Assembly (NCBI RefSeq): GCF_014217545.1
Contig: NZ_CP043178.1
Coordinates: forward strand, 2,666,001 to 2,730,000
Reading direction: 5' to 3'
Origin: Pseudarthrobacter sp. NBSH8
GTDB taxonomy: Bacteria; Actinomycetota; Actinomycetes; Actinomycetales; Micrococcaceae
Length of the DNA stretch: 64,000 nt
Shown: in pieces, positions 11,126 to 40,274 of the stretch
Numbering within the stretch: the first letter of the stretch is position 1
How the letters are laid out: each line of letters starts with the position of its first letter
Notes under the pieces: model-generated
Databases searched by the model: none
What the model was told of the DNA's origin: nothing
Seen by the model: only the letters and a program-made list of their open reading frames with translations
Position numbers and translations under genes: made by a program

Positions 11126-11278
11126 GCCGACCTCCTGTTCCATCATCGATCGCCGTCGCCACGCGGTCAACAAGGCGACGAGACTCACCTATAATGCTCG
11201 CGAAACGGGGTGCATGCCTCATTTGAGAAACGCTCGCGAAATCACGGGCCGCTACGGGCACGGCGGTGACGATGAGGG

Positions 11279-12001
11279 ATGGACCTGTCGATGGCAACGC
11301 GTAGGGAAATCACGAAGAAGCACGCAACCGATTATGCGAAGTCGTCGAAGACTGCCAAGGGGCTGATTCTGGACGAGCTTGTGGCTGTCACGGGGTGGTC
11401 CAGGGCCAACGCCCGCCGGGCACTGTCCACCGCGCGGAAACGCAAAGGCCCGGCAAGATCGGTCGTGCGGAAGCCGCGGGGGCGGACCTACGGCTATGAC
11501 ACCTTGAAGGTCCTGATCAGTGTGTGGCGGCTCGCCGGGATGCCCTCAGGAAAATACCTGGCCGCGACCATGGACCTGTGGTTGCCCAAGCTGGAAGCCT
11601 TCGGGGAGCTCGACGCGAAGAGGCTGACCCCGGCCGTGGCGGCGCAGCTGATGACGGTCTCCGGGGCCACGATCGACCGGCTCCTCAAACCCACCAGGGA
11701 CGCCGCCAGGCCCAAGGGCCTATCCGCGACCAAAGCCGGGCCGCTGCTGCGGAACTCCATCACGGTCCGCAAAGCCGGGGACGAACACGAACAGGCGCCG
11801 GGGTTCATCGAAGCGGACATGGTCGTCCACTGCGGTCCCACCCTGGCCGGGGAATTCGCCAGGACTCTGACCGCCACCGACGTGTTCACGGGCTGGACCG
11901 AGAACGTCGCGGTCCGCAACGGCGCGCACAAATGGGTACTCGCAGCCATGGACGAGGTCATAGCCCGGCTGCCGTTCCCCCTGGTTGGCCTGGACACCGA
12001 T
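11279..12001 (+). pseudogene. Integrase-core (rve-type) transposase, 5' half
   Basis: Codes for the first 241 residues of a DDE transposase; a start at 11291 (MATRREITKK) is also possible. It holds an N-terminal helix-turn-helix region, the first catalytic Asp in FIEADMVVHCGP and a TDVFTGW strand, and ends at GLDTD exactly where the DNG motif should follow. The missing part, beginning NGGEFIN, is found at 39569. A stop created by the inserted RIT element directly follows (TAA at 12002-12004). Family is ISNCY- or IS481-like; I cannot decide between them. Confidence 0.8.
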
Positions 12002-12088
12002 TAAGCCGAGGAAAACACTGAGCCGAGCGATGCCGGTTTTGTCCCGGGTTTCCGGGGATTCCGGAACTTTTCCTCGGTTTAGCGCTTT
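12002..12088 (+). repeat. Left terminal inverted repeat of the RIT element
   Basis: This stretch is about 90 percent identical to the reverse complement of 38498-38584. Within it TAAGCCGAG is followed by a near-copy, and CTTTTCCTCG near the inner end is the inverse of CGAGGAAAA at the outer end, so each terminal repeat is itself partly palindromic, as expected for clustered tyrosine recombinase binding sites. Confidence 0.8.
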
Positions 12089-12145
12089 GCCTCGATTTTG
12101 GCGTTACCTTCGTCGTGTCCATAGACCCAACGAAGGGAAGGCATC

Positions 12146-12693
12146 ATGGAGTCGACAGTTATCGGGCTTGGCGAGCTGGTGGTGGCCGCCTTGGAAGCGG
12201 CGGGCTACAAGCAGTCGACGATGCTGGAATACAGGAAATGGCTTCGCCGCCTGGAGTTGCTCGCCCGGAAACAGGATGGCCCTTATACCGTGGGGTTGGG
12301 TGCGGAATTCGCCTCGATGACCACGAGCCCGCGGACCGGCAGGTTCAGTGACCAGCGTCGAAAGTCGTACGGCCGGTTGGTGAGGTTGCTGGATTCGTAC
12401 CTTCTGACCGGTTCGGTGGATCTTTCCATGATGCCGCGAGGTGGTGGCAAGGCCGCTCCGCGGTCCGAGGAGCTTTGCCGGCTGCTGGCCGGGTGGTCAG
12501 TTGAGATGGGGCAACGCCACCTGGCGGTGAACACCCGGAACTCTTATGACCGCGAGGCTCGCGGGTACCTTCTCTATCTTGAAGACCAAGGGGTGACGTC
12601 GCTTCGGGAGGCCGGGGGTGCCAGCGTGCTGGGGTTCCTTGGATCGTTGCGGGGACGCTGGGCGGAGTCATCGATGTGGTCGGCGGTCCTTAA
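12146..12693 (+). pseudogene. ritA: RIT tyrosine recombinase A, 5' part
   Basis: Encodes about 183 residues beginning MESTVIGLGELVVAALEAAG, an N-terminal DNA-binding (core-binding) domain of the tyrosine recombinase family with LAVNTRNSYDREARGYLLYL as the SAM-like repeat. The frame is cut at 12693 by an IS1380 element and its TTAA duplication. It resumes at 35867; excising the insert with one TTAA gives ...SAVLNLRAFLKFLDR in frame and a 405-residue protein. GGAAGG lies 7 bp before the ATG. Confidence 0.8.
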
Positions 12694-12881
12694 CCTCGAT
12701 CTTTCATGAGGCGACGTTTTCAGTGGATCAGGGCTTACTGGCTGCCTGACGGTTGCCATGGTGGCATTTGGGTGTGACATTTTGACCGCTGGCCTGATGG
12801 CGGCTGTCGGTGACGGTTCCACACCGGTCACGGTGATGCTGTTTTTGTTTCTGAGTGAGTGCGGACCGATGGCGGCTGCGT

Positions 12882-13855: not shown

Positions 13856-15319
13856 TCAGGGTGTGTTGGTCGGGCTTCGGTGGAGCCGGTCGCGGTCGAC
13901 GTTGTCGGCGAGGTATCGCACGAGTCCGGTGTCTTGCATGCCCAGCTCGGTGGCCGTGAGCTTGGGGTCGAGGTCGGTGACGAGCTGGGTCAGGCGGGTC
14001 TGGCGGCAGACGGCGGGGTTGGTGCCGGCCGGGGCGAGCAGCCGCGTGATGTAGCTCGTGTCGACCGGGGTGTCTCGGCTCCGGGTGATCCGGCTGACGA
14101 TGAGGTGAGGATTCAGTGTGCCGATTGCCTCCCGATCCCGGCGGCACGCTTGGACTGCAGCCCATGTCGCGGGATCCATCGGGGCCGGGGAGGGTCGACC
14201 GTGCAGGGTCAGTGCCTGGCGGGCGAGGTCGATGTCAGCGAGGGTGAGCGCGCGGATCTCGGCGTTGGTGGCGGCGTGCAGGAGTGCCAGCAGACCGACC
14301 AGCCGCTCTTGCGGGCGGATGGTGTCTGTCGTCCATCGGCGGAACAGTGAACGTTGGGTGGCCAGATCCAGCACGATGCCGGTAAAGGCAGGCTGGGCTC
14401 CGAGGGCCAGTGAGCGAGCGGGGTTGGCCAGGACAAGCCGGCGACCCTTGGCCCAGGCGAAGAACCGCCGCAGGACATAAGTCTGCTGGTGCAGGGCGGC
14501 GGGTCTGCGTGCAAGGAAGCCTTCCAGGTCAGCGGTGGTCACTTCGGCCCATCCGGTCACCGGGCGCCCGGCGCACATGTGCCCGGCGAGGTCGCGGAGG
14601 ATGCGCAGTCTGGTCGCGAGCGTGATGTCGCTCAGAGTCTGCCGACCGGTGCGGGTCCGGCGGTCCTGCTCGGTGACCTGGGCGTCGTTGTACTGCGCGA
14701 CGGCCTGGCGTAGCGGGGTAGGGATGGCGTCCAGATGCCGTTGGCGCGTCGCAGCCGCGCGCTCCGGGGTGTCCGACTGCGCCAGGGTCAGGCTCTGGCT
14801 GGTGAAGAATGTGGCCAGGACACGTTCGGTCGTTGCGCTGATCACTGCGCCGGCCGCGCGGCGGAGCTGGTGCGGAGTCACGGCCGGGTTGACGACCAGA
14901 ATGCGTCCGGTTTCGCGTAGGACCGCCATCGTCCCGCCAGGGTGATATCGGGCGGCGGCGAAATCCACCAGCAGGTTCCACCACGGCGGTGGCGGCTGCA
15001 TCCGTTGAGCCAGCGACGCGGCATATCGAAACGGCCGGTCCGGGTCCGCGAGCAGGCACCGGTTACATAGCCCACGCCCGGCGTTGCGTCGTTGCTGGCC
15101 GCAGTGCCTGCAAGTGATGGTCTTGGCCGGTTTGCGCGGCGCGGCGGCGCGGACGCATCCAGCGCATCGTCCTTCTTGTAGATGGCTTGACTGCCCGCAC
15201 TCGACGCAGGCCCGCTTCAGGGCGGCGCGTTCCGCGCGGCGATGGCAGGCGTGGCAGTGGTCCCGGTCCCGGAATTTCACCGGTGCCGGGCAGCCCAGAC
15301 ACCGGCGATAGCCGCTCAC
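13856..15319 (-). CDS. Zinc-ribbon tyrosine recombinase-like protein with degenerate active site
   Basis: A 487-residue protein. Residues 1-90 carry six CxxC pairs (Cys 7/10, 22/25, 38/41, 52/55, 70/73, 85/88), i.e. three zinc-ribbon knuckles. The rest resembles a tyrosine recombinase: a core-binding segment (LRRFFAWAKGRRLVLANPAR) and a C-terminal fold. Its catalytic set looks incomplete: where the first Arg is expected the sequence reads AATNAEIRAL, the box II His is missing in AVCRQTRLTQL, and the LGH motif is LGM, though a Tyr follows in LVRYLADN. It may therefore be a DNA-binding partner of the intact recombinase gene upstream. Its start overlaps the XRE gene by 4 bp. Confidence 0.65.
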   Translation of the reverse strand: MSGYRRCLGCPAPVKFRDRDHCHACHRRAERAALKRACVECGQSSHLQEGRCAGCVRAAAPRKPAKTITCRHCGQQRRNAGRGLCNRCLLADPDRPFRYAASLAQRMQPPPPWWNLLVDFAAARYHPGGTMAVLRETGRILVVNPAVTPHQLRRAAGAVISATTERVLATFFTSQSLTLAQSDTPERAAATRQRHLDAIPTPLRQAVAQYNDAQVTEQDRRTRTGRQTLSDITLATRLRILRDLAGHMCAGRPVTGWAEVTTADLEGFLARRPAALHQQTYVLRRFFAWAKGRRLVLANPARSLALGAQPAFTGIVLDLATQRSLFRRWTTDTIRPQERLVGLLALLHAATNAEIRALTLADIDLARQALTLHGRPSPAPMDPATWAAVQACRRDREAIGTLNPHLIVSRITRSRDTPVDTSYITRLLAPAGTNPAVCRQTRLTQLVTDLDPKLTATELGMQDTGLVRYLADNVDRDRLHRSPTNTP

Positions 15320-15621
15320 AGCGGCGGCATCGAGCGGCCGCGGGCGGCCTTCGGCTCGGCCTTGGCCCGGGCCTGCTTCACCGGCTGCGTAACCGGGGTG
15401 GTGTCGACCTCGATCAGGTCATTGGGGGTGCACTCCAGCGCCGTGCAGAGCGCGGCGAGGGTGTCGAGCTTGACTTGGCTGGGTTGCTTGGCGAACAGGG
15501 CCGATACAGATGCCGAGGACAGCTCAAGGCCGGCGCGTTCGGCCAGGAGCCGGCGCAACTGCGCCCCGGTCCAGATCTCCCGCTGTGCTGCAGCCATCCG
15601 CAGCCGCCACCTAATCTCCAT
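15316..15621 (-). CDS. XRE-family helix-turn-helix protein
   Basis: A 101-residue Cro/CI-like protein. The HTH spans about residues 18-70, with LRRLLAERAGLELSSASVSA and LDTLAALCTALECTPNDLIE, which is the standard XRE layout. A basic, Ala/Lys/Arg-rich tail follows. It overlaps the recombinase gene upstream by 11 bp and the zinc-ribbon gene downstream by 4 bp, so it belongs to the same operon. It could repress the operon or act as a directionality factor; neither can be shown from the sequence. Confidence 0.75.
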   Translation of the reverse strand: MEIRWRLRMAAAQREIWTGAQLRRLLAERAGLELSSASVSALFAKQPSQVKLDTLAALCTALECTPNDLIEVDTTPVTQPVKQARAKAEPKAARGRSMPPL

Positions 15622-15900
15622 CTCCCTCTCCTCTCAGCTCAGCCAGAGTCCCTGAGACCGCCCGGCGGTAAGCATCTTCGATGAACGTCGCCGACGGCGT
15701 CACATACCGCATCGTCGTCCCCACGTGCCAATGCCCCAGCATCTGCTGGATAGCAACGAGGTCAACGCCACGTTCGTAATTTCGGGTCGCGCAGGCATGA
15801 CGCAGCGTGTGCGGGCTGAACCTGACCAGCGTAGCCGGGCCTGTGTGGTTTTCGCCGCGGGCCGCCTGCTCAAGCTCGAGCAAGTGAGCCAACCGGTTAC
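15611..15900 (-). pseudogene. Tyrosine recombinase of the three-gene element, C-terminal part
   Basis: Encodes the catalytic end of a XerC/D-like recombinase: FSPHTLRHACATRNYERGVD holds box II His-x-x-Arg, and LGHWHVGTTMRYV supplies the second His and the nucleophilic Tyr. The N-terminal part, including the first catalytic Arg in AGLRAEE, is at 34315-35188. Tn3 transposon A separates the halves with duplication GGATA; excision restores ...RGTIRNRLAHLLELEQ and a 387-residue protein. Confidence 0.85.
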
Positions 15901-15905
15901 GGATA
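15901..15905 (+). repeat. Target duplication GGATA, left side of Tn3 transposon A
   Basis: GGATA here is repeated at 34315-34319. Five base pairs is the usual Tn3-family duplication. Both lie inside the split tyrosine recombinase gene and one copy is needed to restore its frame. Confidence 0.85.
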
Positions 15906-15988
15906 GGGGCTTGAGCAACATCGGAACGGTCAGTGGCGGTAGTGAGGGTTTAGTCGCCTGCTTGGCGCCACTGACCGTTCCAATGTTG
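15906..15988 (+). repeat. Left terminal repeat of Tn3 transposon A with inverted sub-repeat
   Basis: The outer 62 bp match the right end (34253-34314, inverted). In addition 15967-15988 is the inverse of the inner part of the repeat (CAACATYGGAACGGTCAG), so the left end can fold back on itself. Extra copies of the end sequence may be additional transposase binding sites. Confidence 0.75.
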
Positions 15989-16035
15989 GTGGGTTTTTCG
16001 GGGTTGTGGACGGTGTCGTGGGATACCCTCACTTC

Positions 16036-19000
16036 ATGCCGGTGGAGTTTCTGAGTGATGCTGAAGCTGGGGCCTATGGTCGGTACGCTGCGACGGTGGC
16101 GCAGGCGGATCTGGATCGGGTGTTCTTCCTCGACGACGCGGACCTGGTGCTGATAGGACGGCGTCGAGGCGAGCATATGAGGCTCGGGTTTGGACTCCAG
16201 CTTGCGACTGTTCGTCATTTGGGTGCTTTCCTGGAAGATCCCCTGGATGTTCCAACCGCTGTCGTCGATTTCGTTGCCGGGCAGGTTGGCGTGGCCGATC
16301 CGTCGTGCCTTAAAAGGTATGTAGAGCGGGAGAAAACCCGGTTCGAGCACCAGTGGGAGATCCGGCAGGCGTTCGGGTGGAAGGACTTCGCGGACGTCGA
16401 GGAACAGTTCGTTGAGTGGATCGCGGCCCGGTCGTGGACGTCCGGGGACGGGCCGAAGGCGATCTTCCACGACGGCGTGTCGTGGCTGAGGGAACGCAAG
16501 GTGCTGCTGCCCGGGGTGACGACGCTGACGCGGCTGGTTGCGAAGGTCCGCGAGGACACGAACCAGCGGCTGTGGAACGAGCTCGAACTCCTGCTCACGC
16601 CCGGTCAGCGGCTTGCCCTGGACCGGCTGCTGGAGGTCAGGCCGGGAGAGCGGGTTTCGGATCTGGAGCGTTGGCGTAAGGGTCCGCCGCCGCGCGGGAG
16701 CGGGCTGGTGATCATCAAGGCTTTGGATCAGGTGTCCGAGATCATGGGACTGGGACTGGCGGACATCGGCGCTGAGAAGCTGTTGCCGCCGCGTCGTCTG
16801 GGAGGGCTTGCCAGGTACGGGATGAGCGCGGATGCCTCGCTGATCCGCAGGCACCCGCCGGGGCGTCGGCTGGCGACATTGTTGGCCACGGTCCGGCATC
16901 TGGAGGGCGCGTCGGTCGATAACGCCCTGGAGCTGCTGGATTTGTTGATGACAGCCGAGCTGTTGAACAAGGCCCATAGTGCTTCGGACAGGGCGAAGGT
17001 CCGTAAGCACCCGCGCCTGGCGAGGGCTTCAGCCCGTTTGGCGGTAGCAGTGCAGGCGTTGTTTGAATCCGATCAGTGGGCCGTCTCGGAATCGGAGCCG
17101 CCGCGGGTGTCGAAGGTGTGGGAGGCCATCGAATCGGTTGTTTCCCGGGCCGAACTGCGCGCGGCCCTTGTCGTGGTGGGTGAGGATGTTCCGCCGGTCA
17201 ACGGCCCGGACCCCGATGACTGGCGGGCGGAGTTGACGGGGCGGTACGCCAGCATTTCGGGGTTTGTGAAGATGCTGCCGCAGACGATCGAGTTCGCGGC
17301 GAATGCTGAGGGTACGCCCGTGTTGGACGCGATGCAGGCCCTGCCCGAAGTGTTGGCGTACAGGGGCCGCCTGCCTGCACCATTGATCCCCGGACGGTTG
17401 ATCAACGCCGAGATAGTGAACGGGCCGTGGCGGCACCTGGTATTCGGGGCCCACGAGGACGGTGCGGTGAACCGCCATGCCTACGCTTTTTGCGTGTTGG
17501 AGCAGTTCTGGCGGCACTTGAAGCGCCGCGAGATCTACGCCGAGGCCTCGACGAAGTGGCGCAACCCGCAGGCGCAGCTGCTCGAGGGTGCCCGGTGGGA
17601 GGCGATCCGTGCCGATGTGCTGACCACCTTGAGTCTGCCCGAGGACCCGGACGTGCTCCTGGCCGGGCACGCCCAGGCGCTGGAGGAAGCTTACCGGGAG
17701 GTCGGCGACCGCCTCATCGTCAACAGCGAGGTCCGTATCGACGATGACGGGAAGATCCACTTGACCGGCCTGAAGGCGCTCGAGGAACCGCCGTCGCTGG
17801 TTGACCTGCGTACCAGAAGCACGGCGATGCTTCCGCGCATCGATCTTCCGGAAGCCATTCTGGAGGTCATGACGTGGGTCCCTGAGCTGCCCGCGGCCTT
17901 CACGGCCGTCTCCGGGGGACGGTCCCGGCTGGAGGACTTACCGACGTCGCTGGCCGCGTGCCTGGCAGCCCACTCGATGAACGTCGGGTACCGGCCGATC
18001 GCGAAGAAAGGCGTGCCGGCACTGGAACGCTCGCGCCTATCGCACGTGTTCCAGAACTACGTGCGCCCTGAAACTCTTGCGGCCGCGAACGTCCCGCTGC
18101 TCGCCCGGCAGGCCGGTCTTGAGCTTGCCCAGGCGTGGGGTGGCGGCATGGTCGCCGCGGTCGACGGGATGCGTTTCGTGGTCCCGGTGCCGGCCGTGTT
18201 CGCCCGCCCCAACTGTAAGTACTTCGGTCCCAAACGTGGCATGACGTGGCTGAATGCGATGAGCGAGCGGGGCATGGGCCGCGGCGCGAAAATCGTGGCG
18301 GGGACCGTGCGGGACTCCCTGCACATGGTCGATGTCATCTTCGGTATGGACGGCGGCAGTCTGCCCGAGATCGTCGTTTCCGATACCGGGTCCTACTCGG
18401 ATCTGGTGTTCGGGTTGCTCGAACTGCTCGGTATCTCCTACCGGCCGGCTCTGGCTGACCTGCCCGACCAGAAAGGCTGGCGCATCCGTCCCGAGGCCGA
18501 CTACGGCCCGCTGAACACCTTCGCGAGGGGCCGCATCGACCTGGAGAAGGTCCGTCGGAACTGGGACGACATCCTGCGCGTGGTCGCCTCGATCTATACC
18601 GGCACCGTGCGCGCCTACGACGTGGTGACGATGCTTCAGCGAGACGGGCATCCTACCGCCCTGGGTGAGGCGATCGCCTCCTATGGCCGGATCTTCAAAT
18701 CCCTGCACATCCTGGCCTATATCGACGTCGACGAGTCTTACCGCCGCGACATCAAAGGCGTGCGCAACCTCCAGGAAGGCCGCCACGATCTGGCCCGCAG
18801 GATCTGCCACGGACGCAAAGGCGAGCTGTACCACCGGTACGAACGCGGTCTGGAGAACCAGCTCGGGGCCCTGGGCCTGGTCCTGAATTGCGTCGTGCTG
18901 TGGACGAGCGTCTATCTCGACGCCGCCGTGCGACAACTCAAAGCCCAGGGCTACCCCGTACGTGAGGAGGACATGGCCCGATTGTCCCCGTTCGTCCGAA

Positions 19001-19107
19001 CCCATTTGAGCGTGCATGGAACCTACAGCTTTGTTCTGCCCGACATGGAACCAGGAACCATCCGCGAACTGCGGGACCCGGACGCCACCGACGAAGACGA
19101 CGAATGA
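16036..19107 (+). CDS. tnpA: Tn3-family transposase of transposon A
   Basis: A 1023-residue Tn3-type DDE transposase counted from MPVEFLSDAEAGAY (frame open from 16006). Family length is normal. The N-terminal DUF4158-type DNA-binding region is followed by the C-terminal catalytic domain with Asp in VAAVDGMRFVVPV, Asp in EIVVSDTGSYSDLVFGLLEL and Glu in RGLENQLGALGLVLNCVVLW. The frame is uninterrupted, so it may be active. It is homologous along its whole length to the broken tnpA of transposon B. Its stop lies 14 bp from the convergent tnpR stop. Confidence 0.95.
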   Translation: MPVEFLSDAEAGAYGRYAATVAQADLDRVFFLDDADLVLIGRRRGEHMRLGFGLQLATVRHLGAFLEDPLDVPTAVVDFVAGQVGVADPSCLKRYVEREKTRFEHQWEIRQAFGWKDFADVEEQFVEWIAARSWTSGDGPKAIFHDGVSWLRERKVLLPGVTTLTRLVAKVREDTNQRLWNELELLLTPGQRLALDRLLEVRPGERVSDLERWRKGPPPRGSGLVIIKALDQVSEIMGLGLADIGAEKLLPPRRLGGLARYGMSADASLIRRHPPGRRLATLLATVRHLEGASVDNALELLDLLMTAELLNKAHSASDRAKVRKHPRLARASARLAVAVQALFESDQWAVSESEPPRVSKVWEAIESVVSRAELRAALVVVGEDVPPVNGPDPDDWRAELTGRYASISGFVKMLPQTIEFAANAEGTPVLDAMQALPEVLAYRGRLPAPLIPGRLINAEIVNGPWRHLVFGAHEDGAVNRHAYAFCVLEQFWRHLKRREIYAEASTKWRNPQAQLLEGARWEAIRADVLTTLSLPEDPDVLLAGHAQALEEAYREVGDRLIVNSEVRIDDDGKIHLTGLKALEEPPSLVDLRTRSTAMLPRIDLPEAILEVMTWVPELPAAFTAVSGGRSRLEDLPTSLAACLAAHSMNVGYRPIAKKGVPALERSRLSHVFQNYVRPETLAAANVPLLARQAGLELAQAWGGGMVAAVDGMRFVVPVPAVFARPNCKYFGPKRGMTWLNAMSERGMGRGAKIVAGTVRDSLHMVDVIFGMDGGSLPEIVVSDTGSYSDLVFGLLELLGISYRPALADLPDQKGWRIRPEADYGPLNTFARGRIDLEKVRRNWDDILRVVASIYTGTVRAYDVVTMLQRDGHPTALGEAIASYGRIFKSLHILAYIDVDESYRRDIKGVRNLQEGRHDLARRICHGRKGELYHRYERGLENQLGALGLVLNCVVLWTSVYLDAAVRQLKAQGYPVREEDMARLSPFVRTHLSVHGTYSFVLPDMEPGTIRELRDPDATDEDDE

Positions 19108-19121
19108 GCGGGCGTGGTGGC

Positions 19122-19531
19122 TCATTCCTCCGATGGCACGGCCTTCTCGCCGTGCTCACGGAACATACGCAGCACCGTCGCCGGCGATGGGTGCCCACCC
19201 TTCCTCTTGCCCTTTGCAATGACCAGCCGGCCTGCGATATCGCGCAGACTATGCTGCTGCTCGCGCAAGTACAACGCGAGGGCGAGCATCGCCTCGTCGG
19301 TCACCGATGCCCCGCCAATCGTCTTGCCCCGCGCCCGGGCAGACTCGTGCCCCTCCAAGGTGCGGGTACGAATGTACTCACGTTCCATTCCCGACAACGC
19401 CGCAAGCACCGTGAACACGACCCCCGACGGGTCGTGCAGGCCCTGCAACTCCCCGGAGAGGAACTCCAAGCCGATACCGGACGCCTTCAACCGCTCGGCG
19501 AGCATCGCCAGTTCCAGGCCGCGGCCGAGCC
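19122..19531 (-). pseudogene. tnpR: Resolvase of transposon A, C-terminal part
   Basis: Encodes the C-terminal part of a serine recombinase: LGRGLELAMLAERLKASGIG then AALSGMEREYIRTRTLEGHE, the end of the catalytic domain, and a DNA-binding tail with HPSPATVLRMFREHGEKAVP. The catalytic Ser lies in the other half at 30383-30844. Transposon B separates them with duplication GAGCC (19527-19531 and 30383-30387); joining restores HKRLGRGLEL. Confidence 0.85.
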
Positions 19532-19571
19532 GGCCCGTCACGAACAATGGAACAGGATCCGGCGCTAACGG
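19532..19571 (+). repeat. Left terminal inverted repeat of transposon B
   Basis: About 40 bp, identical to the inverse of 30343-30382 up to the first mismatch three bases further in. Direct GAGCC duplications lie outside both ends. Confidence 0.88.
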
Positions 19572-19711
19572 CCCTCGCTCATGTTCGGGGCGTAAAGACG
19601 CCGCGATTGCATCCAACGAATCGTTCTCCGTGCGGACTAAGACGTTCGCTGACTGACCCGCGGCTATGCGCCGCGAAGGACTTTCCAGCGCTCTTCGCCG
19701 TACAAGAACAC

Positions 19712-20308
19712 CTACATCGTGGTGCTCTCGCGGGTGGCGAGGGTTTGCTGGTGGCGGTAGAGAGTGGCACGGCTCCAGCCGACGAGGTGGGCCGCGTCTT
19801 CCGCGGTGCGTCCCTTCGCCCGGGCGTCTTGCGCGATCACTAGCTTGTCCGCAATGACAATCGGATCAGTCAGCGGCCGGCCAAAGCGTGTCCCGTTCTG
19901 CCTGGCAGCGGCGATGCCGGCATTTACACGCTCGACAATCAACTCGCGCTCATACTCGGCCAACGTGGCGAGCATGTTCAGCATCAGCCGGCCCGTCGAG
20001 GTCGCCGGGTCAATACCGTCGGAGATGGATCGGACCTGGACGCCGCGTTCCCTCAGCAGGTTCACTGTGTTCAGCACGTCGATCAATGACCGGCCCAGCC
20101 GATCGACCCGCCACACAACGACTGTGTCGCCCTCCTCTGCGTACTCGAGGAGCCTCTTCATCCCAGGCCGCTCGATCGCCGTCTTACTTCCGGAGGTCAC
20201 GTCGGCGAAAACGTCGCGCTTCTGCACGCCGGCGGAGACCAGTGCGTCGAGCTGCAGCTTGGCATCCTGGCTCGAAGTACTAACTCGCGTATAACCCAAA
20301 TGCCTCAT
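19712..20308 (-). CDS. tnpR: Serine resolvase/invertase of transposon B
   Basis: A 198-residue small serine recombinase starting MRHLGYTRVSTSSQDAKLQL (frame open to 20338). The catalytic Ser is in YTRVSTSSQ, with conserved VWRVDRLGRSL and a later YERELIVERVNAG helix E; a C-terminal helix-turn-helix ends WSRATLYRHQQTLA. The length is normal for a Tn3 resolvase. It would resolve cointegrates at a res site expected just upstream (20310-20490). It is intact, unlike the resolvase of transposon A. Confidence 0.92.
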   Translation of the reverse strand: MRHLGYTRVSTSSQDAKLQLDALVSAGVQKRDVFADVTSGSKTAIERPGMKRLLEYAEEGDTVVVWRVDRLGRSLIDVLNTVNLLRERGVQVRSISDGIDPATSTGRLMLNMLATLAEYERELIVERVNAGIAAARQNGTRFGRPLTDPIVIADKLVIAQDARAKGRTAEDAAHLVGWSRATLYRHQQTLATRESTTM

Positions 20309-20497
20309 TAGGCCATTCTGACTCAAAAAGTCCCTCACTGGGCGCCGCTGAGACGATTTGTGGTGAGACGTGTTTCCGAGACATAAGCGAGCCCGGCTTT
20401 CTCAGCCGGCCGCTAACCCCTCCTCAGATCCAGAACAGTGTCTTGAAAAGCTGTACGTTTGCGGGACACCGGTTCCTGACCATTCGTCTCCGACAGG
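20309..20497 (-). promoter_or_regulatory. Probable res/promoter region of transposon B resolvase
   Basis: This gap upstream of the resolvase is where a Tn3 res site is expected. A pair of half-site-like sequences bounds 20433-20466: TGTCTTGAAAAG and, inverted, ACGTTTGCGGGACA. I cannot resolve three clear subsites, so this is a positional call. Confidence 0.35.
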
Positions 20498-30844: not shown

Positions 30845-30853
30845 CCCGAAATT

Positions 30854-31036: not shown

Positions 31037-31048
31037 GACGCCGATCTG

Positions 31049-31097
31049 CCGATACAAGGATGGCCCGGACCATAGGTCCGGACCATCCTTGTATCGG
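31049..31097. repeat. Near-perfect 23 bp stem hairpin
   Basis: CCGATACAAGGATGGCC (31049 onward) pairs with GGACCATCCTTGTATCGG ending at 31097: 22 of 23 pairs around a 3-base loop. There is no following T run, so a simple terminator is unlikely. It lies between the extra Tn3 end and the IS1380 copy and could be a recombination site or a remnant of another element. Confidence 0.6.
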
Positions 31098-31116
31098 ACT
31101 CCCCGAGAGAAGCTAA

Positions 31117-32817
31117 CCTCGAGATTTCATCGGGGGTGTTACCGGGCCGCGTAATTAAAGCCTGAAGGGTGCCCTGACGTGGGAAAATGTAGTTACCACA
31201 CAACATTTTTCATGACACATCAGGAGCACCCTGCAGGTGAGTTACTTTACCGGTTTTTACCCGCCTGTCCGTGTTGATTCTTCCGGAGACGGGGTGGTGT
31301 CTCAGGCTGGCGGTGTGGTCCTGACCTCAATGGTGAAGGTCGCTGGTCTTGGTGCTGGTTTGTCGGAGGCTGGAGCCGTGGCGCAAACCCTTTGCCACGC
31401 ACGACCCGGGCAAAATCCTCAGCGATCTGGCCCTGTCATTGGCCACGGGCGGCGACAGCGTCTCTGACATTGACCGGCTCCGCAACCAGCCCGAGGTCTA
31501 CGGGCTCGTTGCCTCGGATCCGACCATCAGCCGGCTGTTCAAGATCCTGGCAACGGTAGAGCCTGCCAAGGCGCTGGCGGCCATCAACGGCGCCCGTGCC
31601 AAGGCTCGGGCCCATGTGTGGGCGCAGGCCGGCAAGGACTCGCCCCTGCACGGCGTGAGCGCGGAGAACCCGCTGATCATTGACCTCGACGCTTCCCTCC
31701 TGAATTCCCATTCAGAGAAGGAAGACGCCCGTCCAACGTGGAAGAAAGGATTCGGATTCCACCCACTGTGTTCCTTCCTTGACCACGGGATTCTGGGCAC
31801 CGGTGAGCCGCTCGTGACTCTGCTGCGGCCCGGAAATGCCGGTTCCAACACGGTTGCCGATCACATCCAGGTCGTCAAAGACTCTGTCAAACAACTCCCC
31901 ACGGGGTACCGGTCCGGGCGGAAAATCATGATCCGCACGGATTCCGCCGGCGGCACCCACGGCTTCCTGGACTGGCTGACCGCCAAACACCGCAACTTCT
32001 CCTACTCGGTCGGGTTCCCTATCCATGGAGCCGTGGCCGAGGTCCTGCCATTGGTCCCCAAAATCGGGTGGACGAAAGCATATGACAGTGACGGGGTCGA
32101 GCGTGACGGCGCCTGGGTCGCGGACATCACCGGCATGCTGGACCTGTCCTCTTGGCCTGCCGGGATGCGTGTCATCGTCCGCAAGGAAGTCCCGCACGCC
32201 GGGGCCCAGCTGCGGATCACCGACATCGACGGCAACCGCTACACGGCCATCGCCACCAACCAAACCAAAGGCCAGCTGGCCGTCTTGGAGGTCCGCCACC
32301 GCCTCCGGGCGCGCTGCGAGGACAGGATCCGCAACGCCAAAGACACCGGCCTGGCCAACCTGCCCTTCCACGCCTTTACCGGCAATGAACTCTGGTGCCA
32401 CGTGGTCATGCTCGACGCTGAGATCATGGCCTGGACCCAAATGATCGCTTTCACAGGTACGAAAGCCAGGCGTTGGGAGCCCAAGAAACTCCGGGCAAGG
32501 CTGTTCGAAATCGGCGGCAAGCTTGCCAGCCATGCCCGCCAAACAACCCTGCACCTCGCCGCGACAGCACCGGAGGTAAAGCTGCTGCTCAAAGGGATGG
32601 AACGAATCGCGGCGCTGAGCCCGCCATAGACGCAGCCGCCATCGGTCCGCACTCACTCAGAAACAAAAACAGCATCACCGTGACCGGTGTGGAACCGTCA
32701 CCGACAGCCGCCATCAGGCCAGCGGTCAAAATGACACACCCAAATGCCACCATGGCAACCGTCAGGCAGCCAGTAAGCCCTGATCCACTGAAAACGTCGC
32801 CTCATGAAAGATCGAGG
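31117..32817 (+). mobile_element. IS1380-family element, copy 2
   Basis: A continuous 1701 bp element with ends CCTCGAGATTTCATCGGG and the inverse CCTCGATCTTTCATGAGG. CTAA flanks both sides (31113-31116, 32818-32821), the same size as the TTAA of copy 1. It is nearly identical to copy 1 but 2 bp shorter within the transposase gene. Confidence 0.93.
31237..32629 (+). pseudogene. IS1380 transposase copy 2 (2 bp deletion)
   Basis: Starts GTG with MSYFTGFYPPVRVDSSGDGV and breaks after AGLGAGLSE: this copy reads GAGGCTGGAGCC where copy 1 has GAGGATTTGGAGCC, a net loss of 2 bases near 31369. The rest of the transposase (EPWRKPFATHDPGKIL to MERIAALSPP) is open in the next frame from 31349. Copy 1 shows the intact join, so this copy is probably inactive unless a later start is used. 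Confidence 0.85.
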
Positions 32818-32830
32818 CTAAGACGCGCAG

Positions 32831-33580
32831 TTATCCGTTGGTCAGGATCCCATAGTTTGGGTTGGCATTAAAGAATGCCTGGACCGGGGCCGTGATGATT
32901 GTGGCGCTACATTTACGGGTAGGTGTGGATGGGAACCCTTCGCAGTTGTCGCCGGCATTCTGCATTCCGCTGATGATGCCAGCCGCGTATGCATAACCCT
33001 TGCGCTGAGCGACCACCGGCCCTCCTGAATCGCCGTTTCCTGCTGCGGAGATCCCGTCCTGCTGAACGGAAAAAGCCAGTTGGCTGTAGCAAGGACCAAT
33101 CCCAAGGCCGCCGTAACAGACGCTCGCGTTGATTGACGTCACTTTGTTAATGCAAACCATGCCTGATCGAGAACCTGAGGTGCACCAGTAGTCGTTCAGG
33201 ATGGGAGGTACGGCACCCTTGATCCCCATCCCCAGGTTGCTGTAACGATCACCGTGGTAAATGACGCCACCAAAATGCACCGGTGCGCCGGCTGGAGGGG
33301 CAGGAGGCTGGATCAGCTTCAAATCAGAGCCACCGCTGTTTGTTGCTACAAATAACCCAAGCATGGGTGACGTCGAGGACATGCCGGTACGCCAGATGGA
33401 ACCGGTGGAACCGGTGGGACCGCAGTGATCCGCGGTCAGATTCCTTGTTTCTAGCGTCGACCCGTTCATGAATCCCACACCAAATCCCGTGGTGCAAATG
33501 TTGTAATAATCGGGAGCCTCTTTACGTCTTGGTGAAGAATGGGCTTTAGGAAACTGATGGGAGTCTAAGAATTGCCACAA
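32831..33580 (-). pseudogene. S1-type serine protease, N-terminally truncated
   Basis: A 249-residue frame with a full trypsin-like triad: His in NLTADHCGPTGS, Asp in GGSDLKLIQ and Ser in AAGNGDSGGPVVA, plus several cysteines suited to disulphides. It lacks a signal peptide and propeptide; the frame begins abruptly at a TTG. The family is normally secreted, so this is most likely a truncated gene. It resembles, but is clearly distinct from, the protease carried by transposon B. Confidence 0.72.
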
Positions 33581-33895
33581 GAATCACCTTCCCCTGGTGG
33601 AATTCGAAAGCGTCAAGCTCTGGCGATAGCTGCTCTGGTTGTCGCTGTACTTACAGTCGTGGCTACGGTTGTGCCGTTTTTCTGGACAGACAGTTATCCG
33701 GTTAGACCGGTCTCGGCCAGTATGGTGTTTGCCGGAGCGGGGCTCCTTTGCCTTTGTTACTTCTCAAGCGTCCTCCTGCCTCCAGGAACACGCGCACGAG
33801 AATTCACGGTGATTGGGTCCGGCATGGTAGGCATGGCACTACTCCTGATAGGCGGACTTACGCTCATCGAAATCTATAGGCCGGCTTCGATTTAA
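33572..33895 (+). CDS. Small three-helix membrane protein
   Basis: A 107-residue protein starting at a TTG, with membrane segments at about residues 16-36, 49-68 and 80-100. No family is recognised. Its start overlaps the truncated protease frame by 9 bp on the opposite strand, so the two gene starts face away from each other. It lies in the right arm of transposon A as cargo. It may be a real gene or part of a larger lost one. Confidence 0.5.
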   Translation: MPQESPSPGGIRKRQALAIAALVVAVLTVVATVVPFFWTDSYPVRPVSASMVFAGAGLLCLCYFSSVLLPPGTRAREFTVIGSGMVGMALLLIGGLTLIEIYRPASI

Positions 33896-34252
33896 GGACT
33901 AATTGCGGGCTGTCCATCCGGGAAGCCGCGGCCGCGCTGAGCGTCCCCGAGAGTTCTCGTACGAGTCGAACAGGCGCTCGGGAGCCCCCGCGGCGAAGCA
34001 CTGCGCCCAACTTCCAGCCCAGATTGACTCCATCCTGGAGACCGAGGTCCATCCAGCCCCAAGCCTCCCGCAGGAGAATGGACATGAGCGGCGTCACCGA
34101 CGAGGAAGACCCTGCCGCTTCGGTAGTGGAGTGGGAGGCAACGCATTCGTAGCTGCCGAAGCGCGAGAGCCATCGTGGATCGTGCACCCCGACGTCTGTT
34201 CCCAGGATATTCGTCACCATCGAGCGGAGACGGTCGAAGTCCTCAGCCTGAT
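33890..34252 (-). pseudogene. FAD-dependent monooxygenase remnant
   Basis: Pieces of a PF01494-type flavoprotein are visible in more than one frame: DFDRLRSMVTNILGTDVGVH first, then YRSGRVFLVGDAAHVHSPAG (the GD-motif that contacts FAD) and LGLQDGVNLGWKLGAVL. Frame changes occur between them, and both ends of the gene are missing. It abuts the right terminal repeat of transposon A. Confidence 0.7.
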
Positions 34253-34314
34253 CGCCAAGCGGGCCACTAAACCCTCGCTGCCGCCACTGACCGTTCCAAT
34301 GTTGCTCAGGCCCC
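34253..34314 (-). repeat. Right terminal inverted repeat of transposon A
   Basis: 62 bp matching the inverse of 15906-15967 with few mismatches, followed by the second GGATA duplication (34315-34319). Confidence 0.88.
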
Positions 34315-35188
34315 GGATAGTGCCCCTGCTGATACGTCCTCCGCCCTCATCGGAAAACAGTGACGGTCCTTCGCCGAGACGGGGCGCGATCTCCTCCAGG
34401 TACCACCCCAGGATCAGGTCAAGGCCGTCGAGCATCGGCACCCACCGCGGCCGGGGTCCGGAGGTCTTGGCTCCCTTGCCAAAGCGGACGTGGACCTTCC
34501 CGAAGGGGCCGCGACCGAAGTGCACGTCTGCCCGATCCAGCGACGCCGTCTCCTCCGCCCGCAGCCCCGCGAGATAGAGCGTGCGGAACAAGGCATAGTC
34601 GCGTCCGGCGACCGCATACTTCCGCGCGCCGGCGATGCGCTCCTTGAGGAAGTCGAAGAACTCCTCCATCCGCTCATCACTGGGCGGAGCGATCGCGGAC
34701 GGCGACGAGGAATCGACGTGGCGTGCAGCGTTGAAATCATCGATCGGGTCAACCAGACGGACGCCAAAAACAGACTCGATCTCATTGGCCTTGCGCACGG
34801 ACAAAAACGCATGGAATCCCTTGAAGGCCTGGACATACCCACGCCGGGTCGCAGCCGATAGGCCAAGCTCGACAAGCCCGGCAACGACCCGGTCGACGTC
34901 CTCGGCCGTAACTTCCCACGCCGGCCGGCCGCAAGCGGTCAGGAACCGATCGAGCACCCCGGCGTTGTTCTCAATCGAAGTCTGGGCGAACCCTCGCACG
35001 GCCTGGGAGGTCCTGAACGCCTCCACACACGAATCCTGGAACGCCAGAGGATCCGCCGGAGGGTCGATGGCCGGAGCGGGCGCGGCGCCGCCGTGAACAA
35101 GACGCAATCCGTCATTGACCACGCACACCTTCTTCCAGCCTTGTAACTGTAGGCGCCACCTTATCGAGCAAGGCGCTATCTTGAGCAT
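34315..35188 (-). pseudogene. Tyrosine recombinase of the three-gene element, N-terminal part
   Basis: Encodes the core-binding domain (AVRGFAQTSIENNAGVLDRF and SAATRRGYVQAFKGFHAFLS) and the start of the catalytic domain, with the first conserved Arg in TLYLAGLRAEETASLDRADV. It is cut at GRISRGTIR by transposon A. The first 25-30 residues are doubtful; a GTG at about 35119 (VNDGLRLVHGG) is an alternative start. With the part at 15611-15900 it gives a recombinase of up to 387 residues with all catalytic residues. Confidence 0.85.
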
Positions 35189-35866: not shown

Positions 35867-36536
35867 TCTGCGGGCCTTCCTGAAATTCCTGGACCGCGAC
35901 GACCTGCAGGACGCCCTGGACTTGGCCAACGCCAAACGTCATCACGGGATCTTTCCAACCCTGGGCGACGAGGATGAACAGACGGTTCTCCGGGCCGGCA
36001 CCGGGGGCTTGGTCGCGGCCCGGGATGCTGCCATCACCTTGCTGGCGTTGGTGACGGGCCTGCGCGCGTGCGACCTGATCGCCCTGCGGTTGGGTGACAT
36101 CAACTGGCGGGAATCGACGATCGGGATTGTGCAGCAAAAAACGGGCAACCCGCTGACGCTTCCCCTGCTGCCGGCGATCGCAGACAGGCTTGCGGAGTAT
36201 GTCCTCACCGAGCGTCCCGATGTCGGTAACGACCACGTATTCTTGCGGTCAGTGGCGCCCCACACCGAGTTCTCGGATCACTCGTCCATCTATGATGTGA
36301 CCAGACGAACCTTCAGCGCGGCAGGAACGGACTGCCCGAAGGTCGGGACGAGGTTGCTGCGCCACAACGCCGCCACCAGGCTCCTGCGTGCGGGGACCCC
36401 GCTGCCGACGATCTCGGCGGTCCTTGGCCACTCCGGCCCGGATTCCACCAACGCGTATCTCTCCACCGACACCGAGCACATGCGCGCGTGCGTCCTCCCG
36501 CTGCCACCGGCTTTGCAACAAGGAGCGGGACGGTGA
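35867..36536 (+). pseudogene. ritA: RIT tyrosine recombinase A, 3' part
   Basis: Encodes the catalytic domain of RitA: Arg in LVTGLRACDLIALRLGDINW, box II in GTRLLRHNAATRLLRAGTPL and the LGHSGPDSTNAYL motif with the nucleophilic Tyr. The 5' part is at 12146-12693. The stop overlaps the GTG of ritB (GTGA), indicating translational coupling. Confidence 0.85.
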
Positions 36537-37454
36537 ACGGGCCCAGATTCACCAGCGCGCTCGGCCCCGAGCTGGAGCGTTACCTTGCCTTCAAGAAAAG
36601 CATGGGCATCTACTGCGACACCCGGGTCTGGTATTTGAGGAGTTTCGACCGCTACTGCACGCAACGAGCCGTGGATAACCTTGACCGGGCCACCGTGAAG
36701 GCTGGGTTTCTTCCCTGATCGCATGCCTCCCGAACGGCCGCCGGTCGTGGATGTCATATATCAGGGACTTCGGCCGTTGGGAACGACTCAATGGCGATGA
36801 GGACGCCTACGTTCTGTCTGACCAGTGGAGGTCCGACCTCGTCCGCCCGCAGCCATACCTGCTGACGAACAAGGAGATCACCAGGTTCTTCGATGCCGCG
36901 ACACGGTTGGAGACCAGGTCCCCGTGGAGGTGGCAGGGGTCCGCGTTCTTCGCCCTCATGCATTCGTGCGGGTTGCGCACCTGCGAGGCGCGAGGGTTGG
37001 CGCCGGGGGACGTGAACCTGGCCGAGGGCATCATCGACGTGCTCTGGTCCAAGGGCAACCGCAGCCGACAACTTCTCCTCAACGATCAGATCGTTGACGT
37101 TCTGGCTGATTGCGATCCTTCTTCGTTTCCACCACCGGCGACCCGGTGACGGGATCAATGGCTGCGTCCATGTTCCACAAGATCTGGGACCAGGCCGGGC
37201 TGCCGCACCCGGTCGGAGGGAAACAATCTAGGCCGTACGATTTTCGGCATCATTTTGCCTATGCCAACATCGAACGTTGGATGGCCGAAGGCACCGACGT
37301 CAACGCGATACTGCCCTACCTGGCCAGGTATATGGGCCACGCCTCGCTTCAGAGCACGAACTACTACATCCATACATCCCCGGATTTCATGAACGGCTAC
37401 GCCGACATCGTCCGTGAAGGCCAGGGAATTCTTCCCGAGGTGGGATTCGAATGA
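36533..37454 (+). pseudogene. ritB: RIT tyrosine recombinase B (two frameshifts)
   Basis: Starts at a GTG with AGGAGCGG 5 bp upstream and reads NGPRFTSALGPELERYLAFK. One base is lost near 36703 (GTGAAGGC where GTGGAAGGC is needed), moving the frame to MSYIRDFGRWERLNGDEDAY, and another near 37115, moving it to SFFVSTTGDPVTGSMAAS. Catalytic residues are all encoded: Arg in MHSCGLRTCEARGL, box II in YDFRHHFAYANIERW, and MGHASLQSTNYYIH with the Tyr. It ends at a TGA overlapping the ritC ATG. Confidence 0.82.
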
Positions 37455-38492
37455 AACGCGACACCAGGAACGACACCCCCCAACTTTTGGGGCTACGCAC
37501 GGAACTACCTGCACGAATACATGCCCCAAGTCAGGGGCCTGTCCCCGAAGACCATCGGGGCCTACCGGATTTCCCTGGAATGTTTCGTGGGCTCCCTCGT
37601 GGACGAGCAATCCGTCCAGCGTAAGGACATCGGCTTCGAGCATTTCGAACGGAAGTTCCTCAAGGCATGGCTGATCTGGATGCGGGAAACCAAGCACTAC
37701 CAGCCGAAGACCGCGGGCCTGCGCCTGACCGCCATCAAGGCGTTCCTGCGCTACGCCTCCCAGGAGGACCTCCGGCTGGTGGCCTTGCACGAAGCAGCCA
37801 AGGCGCTCAAGGCCCCCGCCGCGGCAATGAAGCCCATCGAATACCTGCAGGAGAACGAGACCGCCGCGATCCTTGCAGCCTTCACCGGCTCCACCCCGAA
37901 GTCGCGGCGCAACCGCATGCTACTGATACTCCTCTACGAGTCCGCGGCACGCATCAGCGAACTCACCGGACTTGCCCTCGGTGACCTGACGCTGGCGAAA
38001 CCGGCGCACCTGACACTTACCGCGAAAGGGAACAAAAGCCGCGTGGTGCCCCTTGGCGACAAAACCGTCGGGCACCTGCAGGTCTATCTCCAGGAGTTCC
38101 ACCCCCAGCGTCCGGCCCTGCCGGCCACGCGTCCGCTGTTCAACAGCCTCCACCATGGCGAACCGACCCGGCTTTCGGAAGACAGCGTCGCCGCGATACT
38201 CAAGAAGGCCGGGGACATCGCCCGGGCAACTTGTCCGTCGATCCCCGTCAAGCTGCACTGCCACCTGTTCCGTAAGACAAAGGCGATGGACCTCTACAAG
38301 CAAGGAATCCCGCTGCCGATCATCATGCAACTGCTCGGACACGTTAGCGAGAGCACCACCTCGGCTTTCTACGCCTTCGCGACCTCGGACATGATGAAAG
38401 CAGCCATGAACACGGCAGCTCCCGGCATCGGCCAGGCCACCGTGAAATGGCTCAGCGAAGAAAACCTGCAGAAGCTCTACACCCTCCGATAA
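37451..38492 (+). pseudogene. ritC: RIT tyrosine recombinase C (N-terminal frameshift)
   Basis: ATG at 37451 overlaps the ritB stop (ATGA). A run of six C near 37484 puts the next codons out of frame; with five C it would read [20 protein letters not shown] and on into the long frame. From 37521 ([20 protein letters not shown]) 323 residues are open, with Arg in [17 protein letters not shown], box II in [20 protein letters not shown] and [15 protein letters not shown] with the Tyr. A shortened protein from 37521 would retain most of the core-binding domain, so activity is not excluded. Confidence 0.75.
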
Positions 38493-38584: not shown

Positions 38585-38659
38585 ATCGGAACTAAGCCGA
38601 TATCGGCTTAGGGTGTGTTGCTAAACCGTTGTGGGGTTAGTTTCCGACAGGTTGGATTC

Positions 38660-39043
38660 ATGGCAGCAAGGCAGGAGATTTCCGACGAGGCATGGGCCGT
38701 GATGGCGCCGCATTTCCCGGTATGGAAGGGTAACGGGCGTCCGATCATGGATATGCGCCGAACGGTCGAAGCTATCGTGTGGCGGTTCCGTACCGGGGCG
38801 CCCTGGCGTGATGTTCCTGAGAGGTTCGGGAACTGGAACTCGATCTATGGTCGTTTCGCGGACTGGTCCAGGGACGGAACGTGGGCAAACGTTCTCGCGG
38901 CCGCGCAGGCTGCCGGCCAGCGTGCCGGTGATGTTGACTGGACAGTATCCGTGGACGCGACGATCACACGCGTGCACCAGCATGGTGCCACCCTTCCCCG
39001 CGTCACAGGGGGCCCCGCCAAATTACAAGAAACTCGGCGATGA
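38660..39043 (+). CDS. IS5 transposase, first frame
   Basis: 128 residues from MAARQEISDEAWAVMAPHFP, the N-terminal DUF4096-type domain with WRFRTGAPWRDVPERFGNWN. The first catalytic Asp is in WTVSVDATITRVHQHGA. The frame passes a GGGGGCCCC run near 39009 and ends shortly after; the catalytic part continues in the +1 frame, so the product is either made by frameshifting or broken. Confidence 0.85.
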   Translation: MAARQEISDEAWAVMAPHFPVWKGNGRPIMDMRRTVEAIVWRFRTGAPWRDVPERFGNWNSIYGRFADWSRDGTWANVLAAAQAAGQRAGDVDWTVSVDATITRVHQHGATLPRVTGGPAKLQETRR

Positions 39044-39548
39044 AGAGCCCGCGGACCACGCGATCGGCAAGTCCAGGGGTGGAATGACGTGCAAAATCCA
39101 CCTTGCCACGGACGGGAAGGGACGGCCGCTGGGCCTGGTCCTCACAGCCGGTCAGGCCGCTGACACTTCGTTTTTCCAGACCGTACTGGCGAACATCTCA
39201 GTCACCGGCGGATCCCGGGGACGGCCACGCACGAGGCCCGACAGGGTGCTGGCAGACAAGGCCTATACCTCCAGCGCCAACCGCGGCTACCTGGCCAGCA
39301 GAGGAATCAAAATCACGATTCCGGAGCGTTCCGACCAGATCACAGGACGGGCCCGGCGCGGCTCCAAAGGCGGACGGCCCCGATCCTTCGACAAGGAAGC
39401 CTACAAAGGCCGAAACGTCGTTGAACGCTGCTTCAACCGGCTCAAGCAATGGCGTGGCATCGCGACCAGAAGCGACAAAACAGCGCGCAGCTACCTCGCC
39501 GGCGTCACCCTCGCCTCGGCCCTGATCTGGATCAAATCAGTGGTTTAG
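39012..39548 (+). CDS. IS5 transposase, second frame
   Basis: About 178 residues of the catalytic domain, in frame from APPNYKKLGDEEPADHAIGK. It has the second Asp in DRVLADKAYTSSANRGYLAS and the Glu in GRNVVERCFNRLKQWRGIAT. It has no likely start of its own where homology begins (the frame is open from 38808 but its early part is a shadow of the first frame), which supports ribosomal frameshifting as in other IS427-group elements. Confidence 0.8.
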   Translation, partial: APPNYKKLGDEEPADHAIGKSRGGMTCKIHLATDGKGRPLGLVLTAGQAADTSFFQTVLANISVTGGSRGRPRTRPDRVLADKAYTSSANRGYLASRGIKITIPERSDQITGRARRGSKGGRPRSFDKEAYKGRNVVERCFNRLKQWRGIATRSDKTARSYLAGVTLASALIWIKSVV

Positions 39549-39568
39549 CAACACACCCTAGCACTGAT

Positions 39569-40093
39569 AACGGCGGGGAATTCATCAACTACGCCCTGAT
39601 CGCCTGGGCTGGCGACAAAGACATTTACTTCACCCGGTCCCGGCCCTACAAGTCCAACGACAACGCCCACGTCGAGCAGAAAAACGGCGACGTGGTCCGC
39701 CGGCACGCGTTCCACTACCGTTACGACACCGCCGCCGAACTCAAACTCCTCAATGCTCTCTACGCCCTCGTCCGGGTCCGGCTGAACCTCTTCACCGCCA
39801 CCACCAAGGCCGTCGGTTGGCGCTCAAACAAACACGGGAAAAAGACCCGGATCTACGACAAACCGCGGACCCCGTACCAACGCGTCATCGACTCCGGAAT
39901 CCTCACCGAAGCCAAAGCCGCCGAACTCGCCCAACTGATGGAGATCACCAACCCGGCCGACCTCACCCGAGGCATCACCAAAATTCAGACCCAGCTGATA
40001 GCCCTCGCAGCAGCCAAAACCCGGGCCCTGGAAGCCTCATCCACGCGAGCAGAAATAGCTGAGGCACGCACAACCCTCTCGCGAGCATCTTGA
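39569..40093 (+). pseudogene. Integrase-core transposase, 3' half
   Basis: Begins NGGEFINYALIAWAGDKDIY, which completes the DNG motif of the 5' half at 11279-12001, and has the catalytic Glu in NAHVEQKNGDVVRRHAFHYR. The joined protein is about 415 residues. The stop codon lies inside the presumed right terminal repeat of the IS. Confidence 0.82.
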
Positions 40094-40274
40094 CATGAGT
40101 CGTTACGCAAGGCGCCTCTGATCGGTATCGAAAGTAATCGAAAGCGTGTGCCCTTCAGAAAAGACCTCCGAAGGACGGCCCGGCCTTGCCGCGGCGGCCA
40201 ACACCTATATCCCCGGCGCTGGGTGCCGATTTATATGAGTACCACTACTTATTCACTTGGTCCGCTGGTCGGTC

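Follow-up and report, generated by a model that had tools for sequence, protein, structure and literature searches.

RIT elements measure about 3.5 kb, comprise three adjacent tyrosine-recombinase genes and end in an inverted repeat with an overlapping palindrome (PMC3414803, PMC2864759). They have been reported in a Tn6049-like transposase gene, in IS66 tnpA and in radC, and single cases of RITs within transposase genes are thus already known from these two papers, the accessible text of which states no codon-level target. GInt islands and strand-biased SE elements likewise combine three-recombinase modules with site specificity and attachment-site variants, but in the accessible portions of the respective papers their targets are ssb and other genes, a fourth gene is essential and the islands carry other cargo (PMC5385486, PMC10214605). 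The group II intron RmInt1 offers a different parallel: its natural target lies inside the insertion sequence (IS) ISRm2011-2, whose spread it blocks, yet it moves by RNA-based retrohoming rather than through a tyrosine recombinase (PMC5894124, as far as its accessible text goes). Here, we analysed a stretch of 64,000 nucleotides from Pseudarthrobacter sp. NBSH8 (contig NZ_CP043178.1, positions 2,666,001 to 2,730,000; hereafter the window), in which an RIT element forms the second layer of a nest of mobile elements. In contrast to the reports cited above, all readable close relatives of this RIT lie at Ser/Thr-Asp codons.

The nest, seven layers deep and made of eleven elements, is genuine. 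From the outside in, it consists of a single-ORF IS with an rve-fold transposase (layer 1), the RIT element (layer 2), an IS1380 (layer 3), a three-gene element encoding a Zn-ribbon protein (layer 4), two Tn3-type transposons, termed A and B (layers 5 and 6), and, within Tn3 B, an ISL3, an IS3 and an IS1182 (layer 7). Very probably, this structure arose through ordinary transposition of most layers combined with codon-level targeted insertion of layers 2 and 4. The junctions, uninterrupted relatives, restored reading frames and same-codon insertions in many relatives form the basis of this reading. The stack is not a mere chance pile-up, because the families of at least two layers repeatedly insert at the same spot of transposition genes.

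RIT insertion at a Ser/Thr-Asp codon pair

Relatives of the RIT element were searched for in 206 genomes of the genus, both by DNA and by RitC protein (at E 1e-60, RitC matched eight of the 206), and by RitC in 394 genomes of the class (4 of 394 at E 1e-40). RitC also matched 746 plasmid records; of these, the analysis covered the plasmid of Arthrobacter sp. U41. This gave 13 close RIT loci, 11 of them readable; L055 ends at a contig edge and no RIT end was found at L068 (L and G numbers denote loci and genomes, respectively). L140 overlaps L080 and was not counted.

In the window, the RIT (12002 to about 39565, + strand) interrupts the layer 1 transposase at its Thr-Asp codons (ACC-GAT); the N part of this transposase occupies 11279-12001 and the C part 39569-40093. 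The same arrangement recurred in every readable close locus (11/11), where the element adjoins a Ser/Thr-Asp codon pair of an rve-fold transposase gene, followed by N, R or A and then G. In the window nest, L065 and L077, the struck gene is of the layer 1 type (DTD/NGGEF, DSD/NGSEF), while in L080, L081, L082, L083, L084, L134, L135 and L136 it is of the IS3 type, with motifs including HSD/RGTQY, DRGSVY, DAGSQY and DRGSTY (at L084, the HSD side alone is visible). When scanned separately, flanks ended or started at position 282 of 369 of the NF033516 (IS3) model in L077 and in all eight IS3-type loci; against Pfam rve, the boundary fell at position 73 of 102 in L081, L082, L084, L134, L135 and L136. 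Since the gene struck at position 282 in L077 is of the layer 1 type, both host types were hit at a homologous residue. The aspartate at this site is the second residue of the DDE triad. The target gene could be read on both sides of the RIT at seven loci (window, L065, L077, L081, L082, L134, L136), and the RIT occurred in both orientations relative to it, being reversed in L065, L082, L084 and L136.

The inner core at the palindrome end of the RIT also encoded Ser-Asp in 9 of 10 loci. Before GAT, the codon was TCC in the window, L080, L083 and L136, TCG in L077 and L135, AGC in L081 and L082, and TCA in L134; the exception, L065, reads TCC-CAT, and L084 lacks this end. TCN and AGC codons have different first and second bases, serine being the common feature. 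On the simplest reading, the inner core would have been inherited from the previous target, so that the prior hop, too, would have been at a Ser-Asp codon.

More distant RITs (L137, L138, L139), with RitC proteins about 31-35% identical, were placed by eye on translations. One lies near an HKPTD motif in an rve-like transposase and another within a DUF1016-like nuclease, each readable on one side, and the third, readable on both sides, is in the reverse-transcriptase gene of a group II intron at PQGG/..SPLL.

Two of the close loci are more complex. At L080, palindrome modules and right halves of the target stand at both RIT ends in inverted arrangement, and the locus is hence rearranged; at L135, a further IS3-type element appears, by eye, to lie inside ritC, with its own HSDRGS site uninterrupted.

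The Zn-ribbon element in transposition genes

The layer 4 element (13800-35262, - strand) interrupts IS1380 copy 1 between His-Ser and Glu-Lys-Glu codons, at the core TGA (TCA in coding sense). Its Zn-ribbon protein had no match in Pfam or NCBIfam, whereas 290 homologues scored E 0.001 or better among 8000 candidates. In 197 genomes of the family, eight matched, the seven besides the window only partially and weakly, and no relative was confirmed in the genome_contigs and viral_contigs collections; distant ones were found on plasmids and in other genomes. Annotation shows the three genes in this order in seven plasmid regions. We examined 27 loci, namely the window, G370, 16 of 55 plasmid records and nine loci of other genomes; relatives beyond this sample include human-isolate Mycobacterium records, among the 40 plasmid records listed, as well as G805 and further copies in G748.

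A transposition-type or AAA-ATPase gene was found around or beside the element in all 27 loci, on both sides in 13 and one-sidedly or weakly in 14. Pieces of istB stood on both sides in ten loci (L089, L090, L126, L127, L129, L141, L143, L144, L147, L150), IS1380 pieces in two (the window and L065 of G370) and an IS256-type transposase in one (L145, cut at 205/208 of 379 in the Transposase_mut profile). Among the remainder, istB was one-sided or weak in nine (L091, L093, L130, L131, L133, L142, L146, L148, L153; the weak cases are L093 and L146, and L153 begins at a contig edge), and an AAA ATPase stood on one side only in five (L092 and its twin L128, L094, L132, L149), cut by eye near the DEAQ motif in L092/L128, L094 and L149. 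The istB cuts fell at about profile positions 188-206 of 238 in Pfam, with the motif TSN..P at the insertion in most relatives examined, and in the window and G370 alike the cut follows the His-Ser of IS1380. In several copies, 0.3-1 kb is present between the Zn-ribbon integrase and the right end.

The genome G370 harbors a second nest (L065) whose four outer layers repeat those of the window nest in type and order, namely a layer-1-type IS, an RIT, an IS1380 and the Zn-ribbon element. There, the RIT is reversed, and the IS1380 is of a divergent type and lies not in ritA but at the end of the RIT, in a CTAA site; this nest was therefore assembled independently of the one in the window, and the recurrence of the four layers indicates recurrent targeting. 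Moreover, the DNA of the Zn-ribbon element is 91-92% identical between the two nests while the host IS1380 proteins share about 36-38%, which makes these two separate insertions at one IS1380 motif and argues against a common ancestor that already combined IS1380 and element. As a side note, window positions 60888-62312 have an 88% similar copy within the G370 nest (L065 11731-13137).

Proposed mechanism, novelty and points to weigh

In the mechanism that we propose, RIT tyrosine recombinases would insert the element through a core of roughly six bases that encodes Ser/Thr-Asp and lies at the second catalytic Asp of rve-fold transposases. The recombinase pair of the Zn-ribbon element would target conserved motifs, namely HS/EKE in IS1380, TSN..P in istB, a site in IS256 and perhaps AAA ATPases. 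IS1380, Tn3 A, Tn3 B, ISL3, IS3, IS1182 and IS5 would have entered via ordinary transposition with short duplications. The outer part of the nest would have been built largely through targeted hyper-parasitism. We infer strand exchange at the RIT and layer 4 cores, carry-over of the core from the previous target and silencing of the struck transposase; TGA and the RIT cores probably represent recombinase crossover sequences rather than duplications left by transposition.

Several observations weigh against this interpretation. Fourteen of the 27 Zn-ribbon loci fit it one-sidedly or weakly, the AAA ATPase at five of them is an unproven candidate for a transposition gene, and the other flank at L093 and L146 is without identity. 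Nor are the loci all independent, L092 and L128 being identical at the compared flanks and L093 and L146 being close. Pfam returned no match for the C part of the window's layer 1 transposase, the right side of L065, either side of L077 or the left side of L136, and of the two IS1380 pieces in G370 one had no Pfam match and the other stayed below cutoff. The distant RITs use other motifs, and the Asp-codon rule is restricted to the close family. Selective constraint, rather than inheritance, could keep the inner core Ser-Asp-like. Finally, the ritB frame of the nest's own RIT is broken, and no movement of any element was observed.

A codon-level target for RITs or for the three-gene element is mentioned nowhere in the accessible text of PMC3414803, PMC2864759, PMC10214605, PMC8138268, PMC5385486 and PMC5894124, a set that does not include Ricker et al. 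2013 (Plasmid); the codon rule may already be in print. Within the literature thus reached, the codon rule, the serine memory of the core and the targeting of transposition genes by the three-gene element appear to be new. The deep nest thereby becomes a testable rule for nest formation, according to which some elements seek the catalytic codons of others' transposition genes. If true, such codons would offer landing sites that are conserved, abundant and harmless, the spread of transposons would be expected to slow, and the recombinases would appear to track a protein-coding motif instead of one fixed DNA sequence. More tentatively, and with somewhat less than an even chance in our estimation, there could be an entire guild of small tyrosine-recombinase elements that attach at catalytic codons within transposition genes, tolerate codon variation (TCN/AGC), track the motif across IS families and silence transposons, with deep nests as the result.

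Empty sites and restored reading frames

An uninterrupted chromosomal site was found at L072 (G346), where window positions 8247-11177 correspond to 2897-5852 and 40118-45218 to 5854-11000. When rejoined over 600 bases, the chromosome aligns to L072 at 81% over 604 columns. Uninterrupted counterparts also exist further inside the nest: the layer 1 IS without RIT (L069, L070, L071, L079), ritA without IS1380 (L068, L077), IS1380 without the Zn-ribbon element (copy 2 of the same nest, L074, L076), the integrase of the Zn-ribbon element without Tn3 A (L065 of G370), tnpR of Tn3 A without Tn3 B (L010 of the same genome, with its own duplication GACTC) and tnpA of Tn3 B without IS3 and IS1182 (L066, L067). 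For the ISL3 site and the site of the second IS1380, an uninterrupted relative was looked for and not found. The search for empty sites proposed in an earlier, sequence-only reading of this DNA hence succeeded for layers 1-6 and for IS3/IS1182, and failed for ISL3.

The same reading had held that removing each insert rejoins its host frame. Upon virtual excision, six host genes indeed regained full frames matching relatives: the layer 1 transposase (416 amino acids, aa; 92.5% over 416), ritA (412 aa; 67% over 404), IS1380 copy 1 (471 aa; 99.5% over 419), the integrase of the Zn-ribbon element (411 aa; 93% over 411), tnpR of Tn3 A (314 aa; 97% over 278) and tnpA of Tn3 B (943 aa, or 928 aa with alternative handling of one junction base; 98% over 639). 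The ISL3 host gene was not rejoined. Its two pieces are in phase by arithmetic on open reading frame coordinates; it seems not to be intact anyway, given an apparent further frame break near 21361-21413.

Order of insertion and alternative explanations

Nesting fixes the order in which elements entered their immediate host element, and to this extent the proposal that the outermost layers are the oldest holds. It does not fix the order of events at the chromosomal site, since an element can move along with those that it carries. IS3 and IS1182 are adjacent insertions whose relative order cannot be set. The history is further complicated by the second, uninterrupted IS1380 (31117-32817, + strand, duplication CTAA), which lies in Tn3 A and is thereby enclosed by Tn3 A, then by the Zn-ribbon element and then by IS1380 copy 1. 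The two copies show about 5 differences in ~1703 bases (the alignment has nine differing columns, of which two fall at its ends, at the start of the target site). Being interrupted, copy 1 cannot yield a 1.7-kb copy and is therefore not the donor of copy 2, which would require a copy since lost, excision of the inner layers, or the arrival of a pre-loaded Tn3 A.

The latter points to an alternative in which parts of the nest, e.g. Tn3 A carrying Tn3 B and IS1380 copy 2, had already been assembled elsewhere and entered jointly, an explanation that we deem plausible, if short of probable. It would account for a copy 2 that is about 99.7% like the enclosing copy without deriving from it, and it agrees with the presence of two Tn3 A copies in this genome, with 15 mismatches between them over 3642 aligned columns. 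Yet, among the matches listed, no other genome has a sub-nest junction (Tn3 A/Tn3 B or Zn-ribbon element/Tn3 A), and the genome's other Tn3 A (L010) lacks Tn3 B. That copy (L010 5579-11031) has a different passenger segment and is flanked by GACTC.

Alternatively, insertions may have been random and have survived only in dispensable mobile DNA, so that nests would form without targeting. IS1380, Tn3 A, Tn3 B, ISL3, IS3, IS1182 and IS5 share no common site and fit insertion with short duplications, and these layers may follow such a neutral course. However, survival fails to explain why 11 of 11 readable RIT copies occupy one residue position across different transposases, or why 13 Zn-ribbon loci have the same istB, IS1380 or IS256 motif on both sides. 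For layers 2 and 4, the evidence thus weighs against neutral accumulation, which we regard as improbable as an account of the nest. As for chance repeats or an assembly artefact joining repeats, the latter a worry already raised in the sequence-only reading and favored by near-identical copies of several layers elsewhere, we reject both with near certainty, as the nest lies within a single contig of 4,060,736 bases, each junction is marked by a separate duplication or core, and the outer flanks match the contiguous, uninterrupted chromosome of a relative.

Architecture and family assignment of the layers

The count of eleven elements and the depth of seven derive from our reading of 10361-40400 together with Pfam and NCBIfam, which bore out the seven layers, their identities and their nesting as first described. 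All seven duplications named at the outset (TTAA, TGA, GGATA, GAGCC, TCTTATCC, GTC and CTAG) are present at junctions. The limits initially given (11218..40099) were 42 bp too narrow on the left and 8 bp on the right, and the outer duplication, an IS5 and the second IS1380 had been overlooked.

The outer IS (11176-40107, + strand) is flanked by the duplication CAAGG (11171-11175 and 40108-40112), for which G346 has the empty site. Layer 1 scored 38.6 bits against the NCBIfam IS481 model (cutoff 224) and 29.4 bits against the IS3 model (cutoff 160), and membership in either family was therefore rejected. Its intact relative at L069 matched Pfam rve above cutoff and IS481, IS3 and IS30 below cutoff. 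Further copies have the 5-bp duplications GCAGC, GATTC and CCCCG; that of L069 is imperfect.

Layer 2 has the three adjacent tyrosine-recombinase genes of an RIT: ritA (12146-12693 and 35867-36538), ritB (~36535-37454) and ritC (37521-38492). Pfam phage integrase was detected in 36751-37149 and 37521-38492, and a weak, below-cutoff SAM-like match in 12146-12709; the restored ritA resembles that of L077. While ritA is interrupted and ritB broken in frame here, all three genes are open in the relatives L077 and L081. The element ends in a 92-bp inverted repeat with palindrome (92% complementary), and its cores read ACC-GAT at the left and ACT-GAT at the right end. The IS5-type IS (38611-39558, + strand, duplication TA) lies within the terminal palindrome.

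IS1380 copy 1 (12694-35862, - strand) entered ritA with the duplication TTAA. Instead of three recombinases, layer 4 encodes the Zn-ribbon integrase-like protein (13856-15319), an XRE-type regulator (15316-15621) and one tyrosine recombinase, split into 15560-15905 and 34320-35188 by Tn3 A.

Tn3 A (15906-34314, + strand, duplication GGATA; tnpA at 16006-19107, tnpR split) and Tn3 B (19532-30382, - strand, in tnpR of Tn3 A, duplication GAGCC) resemble the Tn3 family in their DDE_Tnp_Tn3 transposase, inverted repeats and 5-bp duplications (also GACTC at the L010 copy), and Tn3 A has a resolvase gene. PF01526 was found in both transposases, and NF033527, run on A alone, scored above cutoff. In contrast to the family, Tn3 A has an extra passenger segment and a third Tn3-type inverted repeat (31009-31036), which is oriented like the end of a former smaller Tn3. 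The Tn3 B tnpA spans about 27342-30220; the part encoding its C-terminal end lies near 24070-24242.

In layer 7, the ISL3-family IS (21905-23352, - strand) lies in a Tn3 B passenger gene, trypsin-like by eye, with the duplication TCTTATCC. The IS3-family IS (24243-25514, + strand, duplication GTC) and the adjoining IS1182-family IS (25521-27337, - strand, duplication CTAG) both interrupt tnpA of Tn3 B. NCBIfam models scored above cutoff for IS1380 copy 2 (NF033539), ISL3 (NF033550), IS3 (NF033516) and IS1182 (NF033551).

Two passenger genes (20700-23700 and 32831-33580), one of them broken by ISL3, resemble secreted trypsin-like serine proteases by eye; Pfam scans of the open reading frames 21361-22071 and 32831-33580 gave no match. 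Elsewhere in the same genome, L014 (2223-2384) holds remnants of IS1380 ends (83-94%) with the middle absent. The end of Tn3 A (34132-34315) matches the L010 copy at 99%, the IS5 has a 99% copy in G246, and an identical copy of the IS1182, likewise with CTAG, is present at L011.

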